Positions 37,357 through 62,111 of a stretch of DNA of 64,000 bases are shown here, piece by piece. How positions within the stretch are numbered: position 1 is the first letter of the stretch; the number at the start of each line of letters is the position of its first letter. The notes beneath the pieces are model-generated. The model worked only from the letters and a program-made list of their open reading frames with translations, did no database searches and had not been told where the DNA came from. The position numbers and the translations under genes were made by a program. The stretch comes from Pycnococcus provasolii (taxonomy: Eukaryota > Chlorophyta > Pseudoscourfieldiophyceae > Pseudoscourfieldiales > Pycnococcaceae): assembly GCA_938743325.2 (NCBI GenBank), contig OW568888.1, positions 124,001-188,000 on the forward strand. The letters run 5' to 3'.

Positions 37357-38847
37357 TTAGGCCGTGTCAGGACCTCCGAATCCACCAGACATCTCCTGCG
37401 CCACTGAGAATGCTGGCGCCGCGTCCACATCATCATCATCATTTGTGCGTTGACCCGCATCACCAAAAAAATTCCAGGCTGCAACGTCGCCGTCGTCGAT
37501 GGTAGCCTCGGGAGGAGCCACCGCCGCCATCGCCGAAACGGCCGCGAGCTTCCTCTTCACGCGACGCTTGATCTTTTTCCTCCGCTTCCCTTTTTCCTCC
37601 GCGAGAGCGAGCGCAGCTTTCGCGCGCGGGTGCTGCAAGTCTGGCCGGCTTGCACGCCGACGGGCGCTGGCCACCGCGCGCATCGCGCGTCGACGGGCCG
37701 CCGCCGCGCTAAGCGGAACAGCATCGCCAAAGCACGCGTACGACACGTGCTGGCCGTGCTTAAGCGCGCTCACGCTCTCCACCACCTTGCCACGTGATGT
37801 GTATATCGCTTTCACGCCATTCAGCGGCGGGGGCACCGCCGACGATGCGACTCGCTTGTACAGCTCCTCCAGCGACGCAACGCGGGGTGTTATCGTGACT
37901 GGTGAGCCGGAGTCGAGGGGTGCACCGAGGCGATGAACGGTGATGACCACCGTCGTCGTCGATGGACGCGGTGCCGCCAATCTTTGCACAGACTCGTCCA
38001 TCGTTCGGCGCGATACCGCCTTGGGCGGCGCGGCCTCGCCCGCCGCGCGATAGTAGAGCTTCGCTCCCGACTCGATCACCGACATGTCGTCGATCGCACG
38101 TCCTGTGCGCGTATAAAGCGCACAACCTGGCGGCATGAGCGGCGTGCCCAGAGCGCTCTCAGCGAGCGTCACAGCCTCGGTCAGCTCAACGCCCGCGGGA
38201 AACGTGACGTCCACAGCTCCCGAGGCTGGTGCCGCGTTGTCCTTTTTCGCGCCAGCACCCTTGGAGAGCAGTGACACGGGAAGCAAGCTGACGCTGACGC
38301 GATTCACGTGCGTCTTACTCTGCGAAAGCCTCGCCGTGAAGCTGCGCTGTTCGCGCCAGCGAGCACGCAGCGCCTTGCGTTCGTCGACGTTGCCAGCCAC
38401 GGGTGCCGGTTTGCTTCCAGTCGCACGTTCGCCAGGCAGCAGGAGCGACTCTCCCTGTGGAACTACGACGATGACTTCCAATGCTTGGAATTCGGATATG
38501 CGTGTTCGTCGTGCACCGTCGAGCGCGTACATCGCCTTCACGGGTGCGGCGAGGCGCAGCTTTTCCTGCACGTGAATCATAATCTGCTTATAGTACGGGT
38601 TCGTGGGAACGCACATGTCATCTTCACCTTCCGCGGCGCACCTGATGAGCGCTAGGGGCATGGACGACGTCTTTGCCGGCATGGCCGCACTTCCGTTGCG
38701 AAGCAGGCGTACGTGCACCGCACCACGCTTTGGCGTGCATAGGTTGTTGAAGAACTTCTCTCGTGAGGTTTGTACGTTTTGCGCTTCGTCCGTACCGTCG
38801 ACGTCAGAGCGTGGGCTGACGAGTGGCTTGCCTGCGAATGCGTCCAC
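37357..38847 (-). CDS. Protein with three doublecortin-like (DCX) repeats, 5' end undefined
   Basis: DCX domains bind and stabilise microtubules and occur in ciliary and basal-body proteins. Three similar units end in the DCX signature of a Tyr-x-x-x-Gly turn plus a hydrophobic strand: AMYALDGARRTRISEFQALE, ALYTRTGRAIDDMSVIESGA and AIYTSRGKVVESVSALKHGQ. Each is preceded by a beta-strand opening (HVRLLRNG; RVSVSLLPVSLL; VVITVHRLG). A basic tract KGKRRKKIKRRVKRK and an acidic tail follow. The frame at 38847 begins with GTG; it stays open upstream through a His/Ala/Arg/Thr-coding CA repeat to about 39085, so the true start lies further upstream, perhaps in another exon. Confidence 0.65.
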   Translation of the reverse strand: MDAFAGKPLVSPRSDVDGTDEAQNVQTSREKFFNNLCTPKRGAVHVRLLRNGSAAMPAKTSSMPLALIRCAAEGEDDMCVPTNPYYKQIMIHVQEKLRLAAPVKAMYALDGARRTRISEFQALEVIVVVPQGESLLLPGERATGSKPAPVAGNVDERKALRARWREQRSFTARLSQSKTHVNRVSVSLLPVSLLSKGAGAKKDNAAPASGAVDVTFPAGVELTEAVTLAESALGTPLMPPGCALYTRTGRAIDDMSVIESGAKLYYRAAGEAAPPKAVSRRTMDESVQRLAAPRPSTTTVVITVHRLGAPLDSGSPVTITPRVASLEELYKRVASSAVPPPLNGVKAIYTSRGKVVESVSALKHGQHVSYACFGDAVPLSAAAARRRAMRAVASARRRASRPDLQHPRAKAALALAEEKGKRRKKIKRRVKRKLAAVSAMAAVAPPEATIDDGDVAAWNFFGDAGQRTNDDDDVDAAPAFSVAQEMSGGFGGPDTA

Positions 38848-38965
38848 TTTAAGTGCCGGTACCCGCCACGCAGGCTTTCCCTTGTCGAGCGAGCTGCGTA
38901 GTGTGTGTTTCTGCTTCGGTTTGACCGTGGCCGAGGCTGCGGCGGCATCCTGGACGAGTAGAGTT

Positions 38966-38967
<2 letters not shown>

Positions 38968-38996
<29 letters not shown>

Positions 38997-39006
38997 TGTG
39001 TGTGTG
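38968..39006 (+). repeat. (TGCG)n/(TG)n microsatellite
   Basis: Runs of GTGC then GTGT lie within the open reading frame upstream of the DCX protein. Confidence 0.9.
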
Positions 39007-39072
39007 AAGGGGAAGGGTTCGTGAGCGAGATATTCCGAGCGTTGTAAGCTCTGAAACGAGCGTTGTAAGCCT

Positions 39073-40385: not shown

Positions 40386-43300
40386 ATGTTAACGGGCTTG
40401 CTCGTGGGGGTTGCGCTCGTGCTCTTCGCCGCTCCTACGTATGTGCTTGCCGCTGAAGACGAAGCACTCAAGTCCGAGTGCCGCGCGGCTGACGACGCGT
40501 GCGACGAACCGCCATGCTTCAGTGGGTCCTGCGCGGGGTACCGCGTCGACGAAGAGCAGCCGAAGTGCCTCACGTCGCCCTTTCACGCCAACGAAAGACA
40601 CGCGAAAAGGATCATCACGATCGAGGTGGGCAACTGGCTCACCGCAGAGCTCACCGGACAGGTGATGGCCATATTGCTGCGAGACGTCATGGGATTTAAA
40701 ACGCGTTTTCTCGAAAGTACGGGAGGGTCCGCACCCCTAGGAACAGGATGGCGCGTTGGCGAAGGGCGCGCGGACATGTGCCTCGAGTACTGGAGTTCAG
40801 GACACGATATTGACTTCAAGCCGTACGTTGACGACGGCAAAATGAGAAAGGGACTCAATGGGTTCACAGGATCCGAAGGACTCTTCATCACCGGTGCCGA
40901 CAAGGACGCAGACACGTCCATCTGGTGGGACTACTGGAAGTCGTATATCGGCGAGGAGACGACGCCAACTACCGCGAAGCTACCTGCGAACGACAGGCCG
41001 GCGGGCGTGACCGGTCCCCGCACGCACACGACGATCGACGGTACGGTACTCACCGCGAAGATGTGCGGTTTGGGATCCAAGTCGCACTTCGACCTGCACA
41101 ACAGCGGGTGCGACCAAAGGACGGGGCAGTACTACGACGAGGACAGCGCGTTCTGCAAGCCTGACCCCGAGACGCTGCAGAGCAGGTGCCACGAAGTTTA
41201 CGCGCACTCGCCATCGTGGGGCATCGATAAAATCGAGGCGATGATCAAAAGGCGCGGCGCGCCGATGACGCTCGTTCACTGGGGCTCCAACCTGACCAAG
41301 GTGGTTTCGGATCAGGCGGCACGCGGGCAGCCCACCCTGCACTACTGGTGGACGCCCGACCCGTGGCTCGCGAAGCTCAAAACGCTTGGTAGCGATCCCA
41401 CGCGAACGTCGTGGCCTGTGCCCACGGACAAGTGCGGGCCAAACACCGCAGATCCAGTTCATGGAGGATGCGATTACCCCTTCCAGTCTCTTGCTAAGGT
41501 GATGAATTCGAGGCTTGCCGCCAACGCAGACACCGTGGCGGCTGCGAATCTCTACGAGGCAACCTCGTGGAACAACGAAGTGGTTGACGTGATGCTCAGC
41601 TACCATATGGATGGTGGTGGTAATTACAGCTCGGCGTTCGATGCGGCATGCAACTTTCTTAAGGATCATCCAACGTACCAAAAGATGGCTGAGAACATTC
41701 TCGCGGGGTTGTGCGAACCAGGTACAATCCGTCAGGATGATGATGGGACGTGCAAGATATGCATGCCTGGCCAGTTCAGCGACAGTGCCACGGCGACTGA
41801 GTGCTCCACCTGTCCAGCGGGAACTTTTTCGCTCACAAAGGCTCGGGAATGCATTCAATGTCCCACCGGCCACTACAGTGCGCCAGGTAGCGGAGAGTGC
41901 AAGCGCTGCGAACCCGGCACGTTCAGTGTGGTGGCGAACGCAACCTGCACAGCGTGTCCCGTTGGGCATTTCGCATCCTCGTATGCCTCGTCCACGTGCT
42001 CGCCGTGCAGCGGCGAACCGGGAGCATTGTATCAGGACACGATTGGAGCGTCGGAGTGCAAGAAATGCCCGGTGAATACGCACCTTCCTCTTGGCAAGGG
42101 TAGCATTAACGTCACCGAGTGCCTTTGCAAGGAAGGCTTCTGGCGACCGGATGGTCTCGAGGGCAAGGCTTGCGTCGCCTGCCCAGCCAATGCCTACTGC
42201 CCAGCTGCCGACGAGCGCAGTCGCATCGTCATGCCCCTACCCGAACGCGGCTACTGGGCCAAGACGGAGAAGGAAATTCGTCCGGCTGGTGGCGATAAGC
42301 TTGGGAGTGGATCTATCGAAGTGCTCAGTGGTTTCCCGTTTGCGCGTAAAGCCAACGTCCCGGAGCCAAAGGTTGGCGATACGGATACGGGCTTCGAACT
42401 TCCAGAGATCCACCTCAAGTGTCCGATCGAGGAACAATGCCCCGGGCGCACTTTCGAGTGCTCAGGCGAGACGCGAGATGCATTGTGCACGCGATGCCGA
42501 GATGGTTACATGAACTTGGGCAGCGAGTGTGTGAAATGCCCGGATGGAAAGGGCTCGGGCGCATCCGTGATGTCCACACTGATGGGCTGGCTCATCGTCG
42601 TTTCCGTGTGGGTGACAATGAACGCCATCGCCGCTGGTCGCCACGAATGCTTCGACATCATGCTACTTTTCTTACAGATCGTCTCCATCATCCAAGGATT
42701 TAGCGTGCCATGGCCATCAGAGCTACGCATCGTCATGCAAGCCTTCGCGGTGGTGAACTTTGATGTTGACTTTGTGTCTCCGGCGTGCGTGTTTTCGTGG
42801 GGCTACGTAGCAAGCACGGTTCTCACATACTTCCTTCCGTTCGTGTGGGCATTTTTCAATACGCTGAAGCTCGGCGTGGCCCATTTGTGGTACAAGAAGT
42901 ACAAGAACAGGGATCAAGAACAGCCAATGTACGCACGCATTTTCAGGCTTTCATTCTTTGTGACAACTAAGGATGGTCTGAAGGAGGTGGAGTATAGCGT
43001 CACGCGCTCGTGCGCCACGGTTGTCATCGTGATCTACAACGCGATTTGCATCAAGGCATTTGGCGCGTTCATATGTACGGAGGCTGCAGACGGCGTGTCG
43101 TTCCTGAATGCAAGCCCAGACATCACGTGCGGGTCGTCAACGCACCATAGTCTCATCGCAGGCGCGGTGATTGCAATTGCTGCCTACGTGATTGGAATCC
43201 CCGCATATGTTGGCTACAAATTGACGTCTCTTCACCGCAATAACCTGCTTTCCGATCCTGCACAGCTCAGTCGCTGGGGATTCCTTTACCTAGCCTACGA

Positions 43301-44789
43301 ACCGAATTATTGGTGGTGGCCGCTCGTGTTCCTTGCTCGCCGCCTGCTATTCTGCACGCTTCTCGTCTTCCTGCACGAACGCCCGTACCTTCAGATTTTC
43401 CTCGGCGTCTTCTTTGTCATAGTGTTTGCATGTATGCAATACTACGCTCACCCCTTTATCCAAGCGCAGGTGGACATTCTCGAATCGTTCATTCTGGTGG
43501 TAACTGCGCTCTATATGTTGTGCGGAGCCGTGTTCCTTTCCAAGGACCTCCTGAGGACTGACGAGGTTGGCATGACTGTATTCCTGCTCCTAGGAACAGG
43601 CCTTGCGACCATGTTTTCGATTTATATCGTCTTTTTATCGGTGCTTCGCCGCATTCGTAGCGACCGGAACTCAGTCAAGCTGTTGCGCCATGTGGCAACC
43701 ATGTGGGTATGCGTATCAGTGGGACTACGACGAAAGTACAAAAATGCAGAGGCTCTCACAAAAGCGCTTGATACAAATCAAGACGGCACTATATCGGCCA
43801 CCGAGCTCCTCGCATTTTTCCAATCAGCGGGCATTGGCTTTGCTGGGGTGCTAAGCGAGGTGGTATTCTTCATCGTCGACAAAGACAACAACGGAAAGCT
43901 GTCGACGGACGAGATTGCCGAGAGTCTATTCCAACTAAACGAATTGCGGATGGAGGAAGACGTAGATGCGTTCAATAAGGTTGCGGTGACGGAGCTTGGC
44001 GACTTCGCCACAAAGATGATTGACGCTTTCGACACACTGACCATCGACGTCACCGATGATGATGGTGCGAGTAAGGGCGATTACGAAGTAATGTATGCTT
44101 CGAAAGAAAGTGTGAGGATTGAGATGATAGTGGAGGCTGAAGAATCATCAAAGTCATCATTGAGGCAGCCTGATGATTCCACATCATCCCGATTATCCAA
44201 ATCATTATCGTTTATGTCCAAGATAATGAACATAAACGATATGTTTGAGTCCGCATCAACCGCCGTGCTCTCGCACGCTCGCGTGCTGAGCGAGATTGCG
44301 TACCGTGAGCGTTTACTCAATGCGACTGGTGGCGAGCTCACAGACACCATAAATGCCGACCCTTTTTTTTTGTGGATGCAGAAATGTATAAACGGTGGCG
44401 AACAGAACCTCATCACGGCGGCCGCCCTTGTCGATCAGTGGACTGCTCCACACATGGCGAATGACTCTGAGTATGGAGCGTATTCGTATTCTGAAAAGGC
44501 GATTTTCTTTCGGCAACTGGTGAAGAGCTACCCATTTGTCATTGACTGGCTTCTAACTGCAAGCGAAGAAGATATCCTTAAATTTCGCGATGTCAAAGAT
44601 TCGCTGTTTTCCCAGGAACAAAAATTTAAGAAACAGAAGCTGTACAAGATGAGAATTGGAAAGCTCATCGTACATGAAGATCGTGCGCCATTCTTGCATT
44701 GGCTAGCGGACATTTCGACCGAGAAGATGCGCAGTCGTGCGACCATGCTGCTAAAGAACATTGTCGAGACCATGAATCACAACGACTAA
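40386..44789 (+). CDS. Chimeric receptor: betaine-type binding domain, Cys-rich repeats, multi-TM, EF-hands
   Basis: The 1467-residue protein starts at the first ATG (40386), giving a textbook signal peptide LTGLLVGVALVLFAAPTYVL. Residues about 75-440 resemble the OpuAC/ProX glycine-betaine/proline substrate-binding domain (ITIEVGNWLTAELTGQVMAI; GRADMCLEYWSS; LHYWWTPDPWL, a binding-pocket Trp motif). Residues about 441-640 are GCC2/GCC3-type Cys repeats (CxxCPAGTFS, CxxCPTGHYS, CKRCEPGTFS). About nine membrane spans follow (732-1090), with the WGFLYLAYEPNYWWWPLVFL segment known from multi-TM protist Cys-rich proteins. Two EF-hands follow: DTNQDGTISATEL (1129) and DKDNNGKLSTDEI (1165), then a cytoplasmic tail to the C-terminus. 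It is inferred to be an extracellular sensor with Ca2+-responsive cytoplasmic output. No frameshift or stop interrupts it. Confidence 0.8.
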   Translation: MLTGLLVGVALVLFAAPTYVLAAEDEALKSECRAADDACDEPPCFSGSCAGYRVDEEQPKCLTSPFHANERHAKRIITIEVGNWLTAELTGQVMAILLRDVMGFKTRFLESTGGSAPLGTGWRVGEGRADMCLEYWSSGHDIDFKPYVDDGKMRKGLNGFTGSEGLFITGADKDADTSIWWDYWKSYIGEETTPTTAKLPANDRPAGVTGPRTHTTIDGTVLTAKMCGLGSKSHFDLHNSGCDQRTGQYYDEDSAFCKPDPETLQSRCHEVYAHSPSWGIDKIEAMIKRRGAPMTLVHWGSNLTKVVSDQAARGQPTLHYWWTPDPWLAKLKTLGSDPTRTSWPVPTDKCGPNTADPVHGGCDYPFQSLAKVMNSRLAANADTVAAANLYEATSWNNEVVDVMLSYHMDGGGNYSSAFDAACNFLKDHPTYQKMAENILAGLCEPGTIRQDDDGTCKICMPGQFSDSATATECSTCPAGTFSLTKARECIQCPTGHYSAPGSGECKRCEPGTFSVVANATCTACPVGHFASSYASSTCSPCSGEPGALYQDTIGASECKKCPVNTHLPLGKGSINVTECLCKEGFWRPDGLEGKACVACPANAYCPAADERSRIVMPLPERGYWAKTEKEIRPAGGDKLGSGSIEVLSGFPFARKANVPEPKVGDTDTGFELPEIHLKCPIEEQCPGRTFECSGETRDALCTRCRDGYMNLGSECVKCPDGKGSGASVMSTLMGWLIVVSVWVTMNAIAAGRHECFDIMLLFLQIVSIIQGFSVPWPSELRIVMQAFAVVNFDVDFVSPACVFSWGYVASTVLTYFLPFVWAFFNTLKLGVAHLWYKKYKNRDQEQPMYARIFRLSFFVTTKDGLKEVEYSVTRSCATVVIVIYNAICIKAFGAFICTEAADGVSFLNASPDITCGSSTHHSLIAGAVIAIAAYVIGIPAYVGYKLTSLHRNNLLSDPAQLSRWGFLYLAYEPNYWWWPLVFLARRLLFCTLLVFLHERPYLQIFLGVFFVIVFACMQYYAHPFIQAQVDILESFILVVTALYMLCGAVFLSKDLLRTDEVGMTVFLLLGTGLATMFSIYIVFLSVLRRIRSDRNSVKLLRHVATMWVCVSVGLRRKYKNAEALTKALDTNQDGTISATELLAFFQSAGIGFAGVLSEVVFFIVDKDNNGKLSTDEIAESLFQLNELRMEEDVDAFNKVAVTELGDFATKMIDAFDTLTIDVTDDDGASKGDYEVMYASKESVRIEMIVEAEESSKSSLRQPDDSTSSRLSKSLSFMSKIMNINDMFESASTAVLSHARVLSEIAYRERLLNATGGELTDTINADPFFLWMQKCINGGEQNLITAAALVDQWTAPHMANDSEYGAYSYSEKAIFFRQLVKSYPFVIDWLLTASEEDILKFRDVKDSLFSQEQKFKKQKLYKMRIGKLIVHEDRAPFLHWLADISTEKMRSRATMLLKNIVETMNHND

Positions 44790-60107: not shown

Positions 60108-60146
60108 TAACCCCGAACTCCAAACCCCTAACCCCTAACCCCGAAC
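60108..60146 (+). repeat. Telomere-like tract between divergent genes
   Basis: TAACCCCGAACTCCAAACCC, then CCTAACCCCTAACCCC, midway between the starts of the COG3146-type gene (60000, minus) and the MscS-like gene (60324, plus). Confidence 0.85.
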
Positions 60147-60323
60147 AAGGTCCTAGTATGTAACCTCCCCGCCCTTTTGCCTCCCGGGACTGAGGGACCC
60201 CGGGTATTCGTTGCGTGGTACAGTACCCTTTTTCTTCGAAGCCTTGGTCCCCCCCCCACTCCCCCGCTGACTGGAGTCCCTTCGCGGCGTGAAACATTAT
60301 TTATAGGGCACTTTAGCCTTCCG

Positions 60324-62111
60324 ATGGGGATGATGATGATGATGATCGGCCGACCTCCGAATAGGCCGGTGGTGGTGGGTCATACCAGGCTTAAGGTGCT
60401 TTGCTTAAGCTCTTGGTCGGTCAGGGTGAGGTCATCGTCGAACGACATTCATCGTCCTCCCTCGTCGTCGTCTTCCACCACATTCACATACCGCGACCTG
60501 CAAGACACACACACGTGGAAGAAGCGCGTCTCGGAAGAAGAGAATAACACAACCCAGGAGGAAGGTTTACACGCAGCAGCACAACATACGACGAACGAAC
60601 GTTTACCCGAAACGAAGACAAACGCGAGCGCTAGTAGGGTTGCAAGGCTTTCAGCAAAGCAAAGCGAGCGGAAGAAGCTTAACGAGTATGACCGCGAGGC
60701 GCAGATGGGTGACACGAAGAAGCAGAGTGCCCTCCGGCGTGTCTCACTCAAACGAATCGTACTTGTTTCTCTACCTCGTCTCGTCATGGCTTTTTCAATG
60801 TCCGCAGCGCTTACCATCGGGCCATACTTGGCGCAGCCACGTCTCGAGGCCCTTCGCGAAGTTTACGGCGAGGTTGCCGTGTTTGGCCTCACCTCCGTTT
60901 TCCTTTTCATGTTGCTACGCATCAACACGTTCGGGAAAATTTCAGAGGTCATCAGCAAGCAGCTTCCAGGTGTGCTACGAACGGTCCTTGGAATGCCTCG
61001 GTGGTCTGCAAGACTGATCGGCTCGCAAGGCGTGCACCTGTGTGGCAGGATCTATCAGGCAGCTTACGTCTTTCTGCTCGCCAATGTGCTGTGCGATGCC
61101 GTTCTGCCCGATCACATGGTGCTCAACATTCCGGATGGCATCGCATTCCTTCTTCCCAAGGGAGCGTACACGGGAAAGGAGCTGGAGGGACACTTCCTCG
61201 CAGCCACAGGGCGCGTGCTCAAGGCGTACGTGGCCATCTGTTGTGGGATGTTCATGCATAACATTAAGGACGTCAAGCCGCAGGAAGATGAAAATGATCA
61301 GCGCTCGAGAAAGGTGAAAGAGCTGTCTGAGGACGACGGGCCAATTGCTAGATACGTTATGGCCTTACGCGGTGATCTCAGCGCCACGACAAAGCACGCA
61401 CGACTAGTCGGCGTCGCGCTTCTGTGCGATCGCGTTCTCGACTTTTCGATCGTGTGCATTTGTATTACGCAGGTACTTGGTATTTTCGGCGTTTCTTTGA
61501 AAACGCTAATTGCCGTTGCAGGAGTCGGAGCACTCGCCATTTCCATCTCAGCTCGTCCTCTCGTCCAGAACCTAATTGGCGGGCTCACCATCTTCCTTCT
61601 AAACCCGTTCTCTTTGAATGAGTTCATCGTGACAAAGGAAATACAAGGATATGTGGAGAGCATTGGCTGGCTATCAACGAGCGTTCGCACCACCGAGGGT
61701 GTGCAGCTCGTGCCTAATGACAAGCTTGTGGATGAGACGCTGCTGAACAGGTCGAGGCTTCCCGAGAAACACTTTGAAGTTTCCACGGATACGCTGTACC
61801 TTGTTCCAATCGACCCTAGGAATATAAACATGCCTGTTGCAATACGCGAAATGACCCGGGCGTTGAGACAGCATCCCCGTGCCTTCGGAGGACAAGCAAT
61901 TTTCAAGGGTACGACATCGACTGGCGTGCTAGCTATTGACATTCATTTTAGCGTCGCATCTAAGAGCGCGCTGGAACGGGCAACAAAACGCTCTGAGGTA
62001 CTTGCCCATATGTATGAAACATCACGCCAACAAGGCTTAACGAGTCCAACGACAAGTGCCGTTGGCGCAAAGTCCCGAACCTATTCAAGGGCATCGGGTG
62101 TTATGATTTGA
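60324..62111 (+). CDS. MscS-family mechanosensitive ion channel
   Basis: MscS channels release ions on membrane tension; plant MSL2/3 act in plastids. The 595-residue product is counted from the first ATG (60324), though 60708 is possible. The leader is Ser/Arg-rich with a Met run (GMMMMMIGRPPNRP), compatible with plastid targeting. Four to five hydrophobic spans precede the pore helix AVAGVGALAISISARPLVQN-LIGG (about 397-420), which carries the MscS Gly/Ala pattern. The beta domain follows with NPFSLNEFI, GYVESIGWLSTSVRTTEGVQ and VPNDKLVDETLLN. The C-terminal part is short and Ser-rich. The substrate is presumably small ions. Confidence 0.88.
   Translation: MGMMMMMIGRPPNRPVVVGHTRLKVLCLSSWSVRVRSSSNDIHRPPSSSSSTTFTYRDLQDTHTWKKRVSEEENNTTQEEGLHAAAQHTTNERLPETKTNASASRVARLSAKQSERKKLNEYDREAQMGDTKKQSALRRVSLKRIVLVSLPRLVMAFSMSAALTIGPYLAQPRLEALREVYGEVAVFGLTSVFLFMLLRINTFGKISEVISKQLPGVLRTVLGMPRWSARLIGSQGVHLCGRIYQAAYVFLLANVLCDAVLPDHMVLNIPDGIAFLLPKGAYTGKELEGHFLAATGRVLKAYVAICCGMFMHNIKDVKPQEDENDQRSRKVKELSEDDGPIARYVMALRGDLSATTKHARLVGVALLCDRVLDFSIVCICITQVLGIFGVSLKTLIAVAGVGALAISISARPLVQNLIGGLTIFLLNPFSLNEFIVTKEIQGYVESIGWLSTSVRTTEGVQLVPNDKLVDETLLNRSRLPEKHFEVSTDTLYLVPIDPRNINMPVAIREMTRALRQHPRAFGGQAIFKGTTSTGVLAIDIHFSVASKSALERATKRSEVLAHMYETSRQQGLTSPTTSAVGAKSRTYSRASGVMI

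Follow-up and report, generated by a model that had tools for sequence, protein, structure and literature searches.

A single-chain protein of Pycnococcus provasolii that joins an OpuAC-type binding domain to a TRP-like membrane block and EF-hands: a candidate osmolyte receptor from a gene family with differing sensors

The window analyzed here is a stretch of 64,000 nucleotides from the green alga Pycnococcus provasolii (contig OW568888.1, here C28, positions 124001-188000; the genome, G000, comprises 32.3 Mb in 46 contigs). The gene that concerns us lies on its plus strand at positions 40386-44789 and consists of one ATG-to-stop open reading frame of 1467 codons, uninterrupted, encoding a protein of 1467 amino acids. 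For comparison, a first-order Markov model with the dinucleotide composition of the window was used to simulate 64 kb 30 times, and stop-free runs then reached 409 codons at most. The guanine-plus-cytosine (GC) content of third codon positions exceeds that of first and second positions in all five segments of the gene (0.56-0.75). An earlier note, written from the sequence alone, had described a single chain carrying a signal peptide, an OpuAC/ProX-like binding domain, GCC2/GCC3-type Cys repeats, about nine transmembrane (TM) segments and two EF-hands, and this observation is confirmed.

From the N- to the C-terminus, and always on the plus strand, the protein begins with a putative signal peptide (residues 1-23, positions 40386-40454), recognized by a hydrophobic segment at residues 5-23. 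It is followed by the OpuAC/ProX-type substrate-binding domain (residues 73-442, positions 40602-41711), which is assigned by Pfam, hhalign and pocket mapping. Next comes a Cys-rich stalk (residues 443-720, positions 41712-42545), in which Pfam finds GCC2/GCC3 (Ephrin_rec_like) repeats and then a DUF7630-like segment. The membrane block, with nine predicted TM helices resembling the TRP family PF06011, covers residues ~727-1084 (positions 42564-43637; Pfam, hydropathy and charges). Two canonical 12-residue EF-hand loops, identified by Pfam and loop pattern, lie at residues 1129-1140 (DTNQDGTISATE, positions 43770-43805) and 1165-1176 (DKDNNGKLSTDE, positions 43878-43913), and a conserved tail of unassigned fold, predicted to be cytosolic and traced by phmmer, completes the protein (residues 1260-1467, positions 44163-44786). 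Ephrin_rec_like (PF07699, formerly GCC2_GCC3) scores 49.2 bits in four stretches (cut-off 23.1) and EF-hand_6 scores 30.6 bits (cut-off 25); DUF7630 stays below its cut-off (25.3 bits against 27). A second gene of the same genome, L035 on contig C4, repeats the order of OpuAC-like domain, Cys repeats, TM block and one EF loop, with the TM block and the EF loop scoring below the Pfam cut-offs.

The earlier note had treated this gene singly. In fact, at least 19 genes share the TM block and differ in their N-terminal sensors. Twenty-one proteins were examined, namely the window gene and 20 loci from the same genome. Nineteen contain the TM block, which is partial or in pieces in three of them (L040, L041 and L044); L036 and L042 are without it, and further matches, for instance on contigs C19 and C40, lie outside the set. 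Pfam scans covered 18 of the 19 TM-block members (all except L044); L028, L034, L037, L039, L040 and L044 are stretches lacking a whole open frame, where domains may be missed. The N-terminus is of the OpuAC type in the window gene and, by homology, in L035; it is a Peripla_BP_6 domain in L025, a tandem Peripla_BP_4 in L026 and an ANF_receptor domain in L027. Cache domains were found above cut-off in L029, L030 and L034 and below it in L031 and L033, and Pfam found no N-terminal sensor domain in L028, L032 and L037. Altogether, small-molecule sensors (OpuAC, type I periplasmic binding proteins (PBP-I), ANF and Cache) stand on 10 of the 18 scanned members, seven of them above cut-off and L035 by homology only. 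That related TM blocks carry unlike sensors for small molecules argues for ligand sensing.

Three database proteins, P0001 (Peripla_BP_4) and P0002 and P0003 (Peripla_BP_6), closely share the chassis and align with the window protein from about residue 443 onward; P0003 is 99% identical to L025. Over the chassis, L025, L026 and P0001-P0003 are about 38-45% identical to the window protein, and within the TM block the identity is 49-55% for L025, L026 and P0001, but these proteins carry Peripla_BP_6 or tandem Peripla_BP_4 sensors instead of OpuAC. The tail (residues 1260-1467) has phmmer matches at E<=1e-3 in L025, L026, L027, L028, L034, L035 and P0001-P0003. L029 and L030 have near-identical TM blocks; their Cache domain is a sensor type of bacterial chemoreceptors. 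The two proteins without the TM block are also composite. In L042 (L042:1678-6030, on contig C15), an MscS mechanosensitive channel domain (PF00924, 69 bits) is joined to an OpuAC-like domain that stays below cut-off (15.6 bits) and to a C2 domain just under its cut-off (20.6 bits against 22); here the binding protein stands on a channel of another, unrelated type. L036 (L036:1417-7287, on contig C7) combines a Peripla_BP_6-like domain (29.6 bits, just under cut-off) and GCC2/3 repeats with a domain of the guanylate/adenylate cyclases (25.7 bits against a cut-off of 21.9), which makes it a receptor cyclase with the same type of stalk.

The OpuAC assignment of the window sensor is supported by two kinds of profile comparison. 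PF04069 (cut-off 21.2) scores 24.6 bits, in two stretches, when the whole protein is scanned; the domain scanned alone reached 30.1 bits (E 4.9e-7). The window domain is also homologous to the N-termini of L035 (E 2.4e-20) and L042 (E 5.1e-7; phmmer among the 21 proteins). A profile built from these three algal domains matches ten bacterial ProX/OpuAC proteins in hhalign with a probability of 96.6% (E 5.5e-10) over 287 columns, and the homology spans both lobes. The domain has a W-x-P motif (WTP, residues 322-324) and an insert that contains Cys and is some 100 residues long (approximately 165-270). Weak tblastn matches occur in 15 plasmid records (best E 0.03): seven lie over annotated ABC (ATP-binding cassette) or glycine-betaine substrate-binding proteins (H2, H7, H8, H10, H11, H12 and H15), two on unrelated genes and six where there is no annotation. 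Less favourable are the comparisons with the PDB: phmmer with the domain returned only an unrelated chain (E 2.1), and the three-domain profile ranked E. coli ProX (1r9l, E 0.18) below a chain that is unrelated (E 0.091).

The published work on the bacterial protein RnDmpX states that it binds dimethylsulfoniopropionate (DMSP) through Trp35, Thr64, Trp84, Glu113, Trp152, Ala153, Tyr200 and Trp202, that Thr64 and Ala153 bind the DMSP carboxylate, and that changing Tyr200 abolished binding (PMC10030565). PDB entry 7yle appears to be this protein, as follows from its sequence and residue numbers. Six of the eight residues are identical in the window protein, at positions on which three MAFFT modes agree: Trp35 corresponds to W84, Trp84 to W136, Glu113 to E164, Trp152 to W278, Tyr200 to Y320 and Trp202 to W322. 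The residues of the tryptophan cage that the earlier note suggested looking for are present at the level of the alignment, which puts W84, W136, W278 and W322 at pocket positions. Given an overall identity of 16% to DmpX (46/281), the binomial probability of six matches in eight is 2e-4; when 40 shuffled versions were aligned anew with the bacterial rows, they kept zero to four pocket residues, and the real sequence aligned without its algal relatives still kept six. The same count is five in the C4 protein and four in C15; among bacterial proteins it is seven in those of Salinivibrio and Pararhizobium, six in Shinella, four in E. coli ProX, three in an Agrobacterium protein and two in a Rhizobium OpuAC. 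The retention of these residues indicates an onium osmolyte, without deciding which one, and we infer that the ligand of the window sensor would be a quaternary-ammonium or sulfonium osmolyte. The earlier suggestion of a betaine- or DMSP-like ligand was a natural one. Since the pockets of C4 and C15 differ, the copies need not all bind the same ligand.

The membrane block matches PF06011 with 34.8 bits (cut-off 28.5). The same family is found at E<=0.1 in all 12 members scanned for it (of the 19 with a TM block), some of them below the curated cut-off (L035, 17.9 bits, for instance), and genome-wide at 14 places at E<=0.01, of which 11 are above cut-off. Kyte-Doolittle hydropathy (over 19 residues, threshold 1.4) gives, besides the N-terminal segment 5-23, nine segments between residues 732 and 1083. 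An additional peak at 1147-1165 (1.67, above TM3 at 1.44) falls between the EF loops and is, in our judgement, the EF linker and not a TM helix; the Goldman-Engelman-Steitz scale adds minor segments at 512-530 and 787-805. Lysine and arginine occupy 17 of 106 inside positions compared with 8 of 93 outside positions. This bias favours an N-out/C-in topology, which would place the sensor and the Cys repeats outside the cell and the EF-hands in the cytosol. By its sequence, the block is TRP-like, of the Flc/Pkd2 type, and not of the class C G-protein-coupled receptor (GPCR) type. PF06011 represents a channel family known mainly from fungi. According to excerpts of PMC11277609, one of its members, Pkd2 of S. 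pombe, is a mechanosensitive channel and conducts Ca2+ in response to membrane stretching; nine helices make up its central TM domain, which lies between a putative lipid-binding domain outside the cell and a tail in the cytosol.

The sensor and the membrane block have different histories. A tree of TM blocks was built from 21 rows and 408 columns, leaving out P0003, a near copy, and L044, whose match is split. In it the window gene falls with the two Peripla_BP_4 receptors (support 95/93), and these three form with the two Peripla_BP_6 receptors a clade of five (100/100). No BLAST similarity at E<=0.01 was detected between the window sensor and those of L025, L026, P0001 and P0002. Conversely, L035 has a distant TM block but a sensor similar to that of the window gene (BLAST E 1e-10); among the 21 proteins, the window sensor resembles only those of C4 and of the MscS-fused C15. 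At least two changes are needed to place OpuAC on the TM-block tree, in which L035 has a long branch and is itself unsurely positioned. Close TM blocks with unlike sensors, and a distant TM block with a like sensor, are the signs of these separate histories. A viral or mobile origin of the chassis was considered and rejected: six short peptide patterns had no match in viral contigs, and tblastn of the TM block had none in phages or plasmids.

We give about an even chance to the reading that the window gene encodes a chemoreceptor channel, of the plasma membrane or the flagellum, for a methylated onium osmolyte. The extracellular OpuAC-type clamshell would bind a small ligand of this kind in its tryptophan cage, candidates being DMSP, glycine betaine, proline betaine, or compounds of the trimethylamine N-oxide (TMAO) or choline type. 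Closure of the clamshell would be passed through the disulfide-rich stalk to the nine-helix TRP-like (Flc/Pkd2-type) block, which would change its permeability to cations (Ca2+). The two cytosolic EF-hands may then sense this Ca2+ and in turn act on the channel or on partners of the tail. Of all this, the sequence itself establishes the architecture, the pocket residues and the membership of a family with differing sensors, whereas location, ligand, gating, permeation and the role of the EF-hands are inferred.

Several observations count against this reading, and they concern first the membrane block. The PF06011 match covers profile positions 224-410 of 426, that is, the second half only; PF06011 is the one source of the TRP label, and a profile search with the TM block matched no solved membrane structure. 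In addition, excerpts of PMC9600462 link the fungal Flc1 to flavin transport as well as to Ca2+ homeostasis. Finally, cadherin or Ig-like (Big_9) domains occur above cut-off in four paralogues, L038, L039, L040 and L041 (and below it in L043), and suggest adhesion, not small-molecule sensing, for those four. It could be that the block is not a channel but an Flc-like transporter, a scaffold or the anchor of a surface glycoprotein, the OpuAC domain serving osmolyte uptake or being structural. The Flc1 data and the cadherin/Ig-like paralogues speak for this, as does the match of the Cys repeats to the mastigoneme-like protein Mst1 (8tx1, E 2e-17). However, the distribution of small-molecule sensors over the scanned members, and the retention of both EF loops by every one of the five members of the nearest clade (the window gene, L025, L026, P0001 and P0002), are less easily accommodated, and we regard this explanation as unlikely, if still deserving serious attention.

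The remaining adverse points concern the sensor. Two of the eight pocket residues are replaced, Thr64 by Gly113 and Ala153 by Gly279; Gly is common among the bacterial rows at the latter position. The equivalent of Tyr200 is a Tyr in the window gene and C15 and a Gly in C4, and C15 lacks the equivalent of Trp152. A six-frame search of the whole genome with PF04069 gave nothing at E<=0.001, and Pfam gives no OpuAC match for the N-terminal domain of L035. Searches with the window domain as a single sequence brought up no bacterial homologue; phmmer at E<=10 gave no relative in sets of 1772 and 3262 candidates, which were chosen as proteins sharing five-residue words, so that absence elsewhere does not follow. 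The domain might have lost ligand binding and now be a module for adhesion or protein interaction. The low identity to DmpX, the long Cys-containing insert, the loss of Thr64 and the divergence of the C4 and C15 pockets would fit with this, but six of eight pocket residues are kept over a 16% background, shuffled sequences never exceeded four, and we consider it rather improbable.

The earlier note had likened the gene to class C GPCRs, in which a Cys-rich linker stands between clamshell and TM domain. The layout is indeed similar (flytrap, Cys-rich region, multiple TM), and NCD3G gives a weak match, far below its cut-off (17.3 bits against 38.9). The likeness does not extend to the membrane block: about nine TM segments are predicted and not seven, PF06011 is present in all 12 scanned members, and no 7tm family was listed for any of them. 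A six-frame search of the genome for G-alpha (PF00503) gave eight places, the best of which reads by eye as an Arf GTPase and the other seven of which are under cut-off; an intron-split gene could be missed in this way. The idea of class C-type signalling through G proteins was dismissed on the TM family, the TM count and the NCD3G score, and has in our opinion very little chance of being right. That two genes were joined by the assembly or through a missed intron is hardly credible and was dismissed as well: the 4.4 kb frame is uninterrupted, third-position GC is raised in all five segments, C4 is a second gene with the same domain order, and P0001-P0003 likewise chain a sensor to the chassis.

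A wider proposal, which we advance tentatively and with somewhat less confidence than the chemoreceptor-channel reading of the gene itself, is that these proteins may be ligand-gated receptor channels of a new eukaryotic class, in which nine-helix Flc/Pkd2-type blocks carry interchangeable bacterial-type chemosensors (PBP-I types, OpuAC, Cache and ANF), the window gene being a surface receptor for DMSP or glycine betaine. If so, the family would be what the repertoire of chemoreceptors is in bacteria, transposed to a eukaryote, and would give the alga a modular chemosensory repertoire on a channel family. Between marine algae and bacteria, DMSP and betaines serve as major currencies, and the bacterial uptake proteins are known; to our knowledge, though no search was aimed at this point, no eukaryotic surface receptor for either is known. 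The pocket permits a direct ligand test. We found no report, in the open-licence PubMed Central (PMC) literature, that describes a PF06011 channel bearing an OpuAC, PBP or Cache domain, or a eukaryotic receptor with OpuAC, and such a fusion is not described in excerpts of PMC549065, PMC11085791 and PMC9242649.

Some other features of the window and the genome may be recorded. Nine neighbouring frames were scanned and seemed ordinary or were without a Pfam match, and no Rfam family reached threshold in the window. The upstream neighbour (37357-39072, minus strand) has a doublecortin (DCX) domain (40.3 bits), and an MscS-type mechanosensitive channel gene lies about 15 kb downstream of the receptor gene (60132-62111, plus strand). 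Elsewhere in the genome, a separate multi-TM protein with a long tail (L138:449-2401, on contig C11) has a match to the class C 7TM family that stays below cut-off (22.4 bits against 33.5). There are two ABC permease domains (PF00528); one (C46:56256-56840) is within a 2961-codon open frame. Chlorophyll-binding domains (PF00504) occur at 51 places, as befits an alga of the green lineage; for the one protein that was compared with the PDB, six light-harvesting complex I chains of 9vfj came first, followed by Lhca proteins binding chlorophyll a/b.

How does the window protein compare with known systems? By Pfam and hhalign, its sensor belongs to the family of DmpX (7yle), E. coli ProX (1r9l) and 4xz6, which we take to be the TMAO-binding protein TmoX, and it has in common with ProX/OpuAC proteins the Trp cage residues, the W-x-P motif and six of the eight DmpX pocket residues. 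It differs from DmpX by its Cys-containing insert and its low identity, and, whereas ProX/OpuAC is a free protein beside ProV/ProW, the window domain forms one chain with a stalk and a TM block that are eukaryotic. With the fungal Flc/Pkd2 family, the window protein shares PF06011, about nine TM segments, an extracellular N-terminal domain and a cytosolic tail; where Pkd2 has its putative lipid-binding domain the window protein has an OpuAC-type domain, and GCC2/3 repeats and EF-hands are added. According to excerpts of PMC549065, fusions of a clamshell to an effector are already known in class C GPCRs, ionotropic glutamate receptors and bacterial Cys-loop channels. In the first two, as in the window protein, a bacterial-type clamshell is joined to a membrane effector, but class C GPCRs have a PBP-I domain and 7tm_3 where the window protein has OpuAC and no 7tm_3, and in glutamate receptors, unlike here, the TM block is inserted in the clamshell (PMC549065). 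The bacterial Cys-loop (ART-LGIC) channels with PBP-I or Cache domains likewise set modular bacterial small-molecule sensors on an ion channel; as described in the same excerpts (PMC549065), they are prokaryotic and use another channel family, unlike the window protein.

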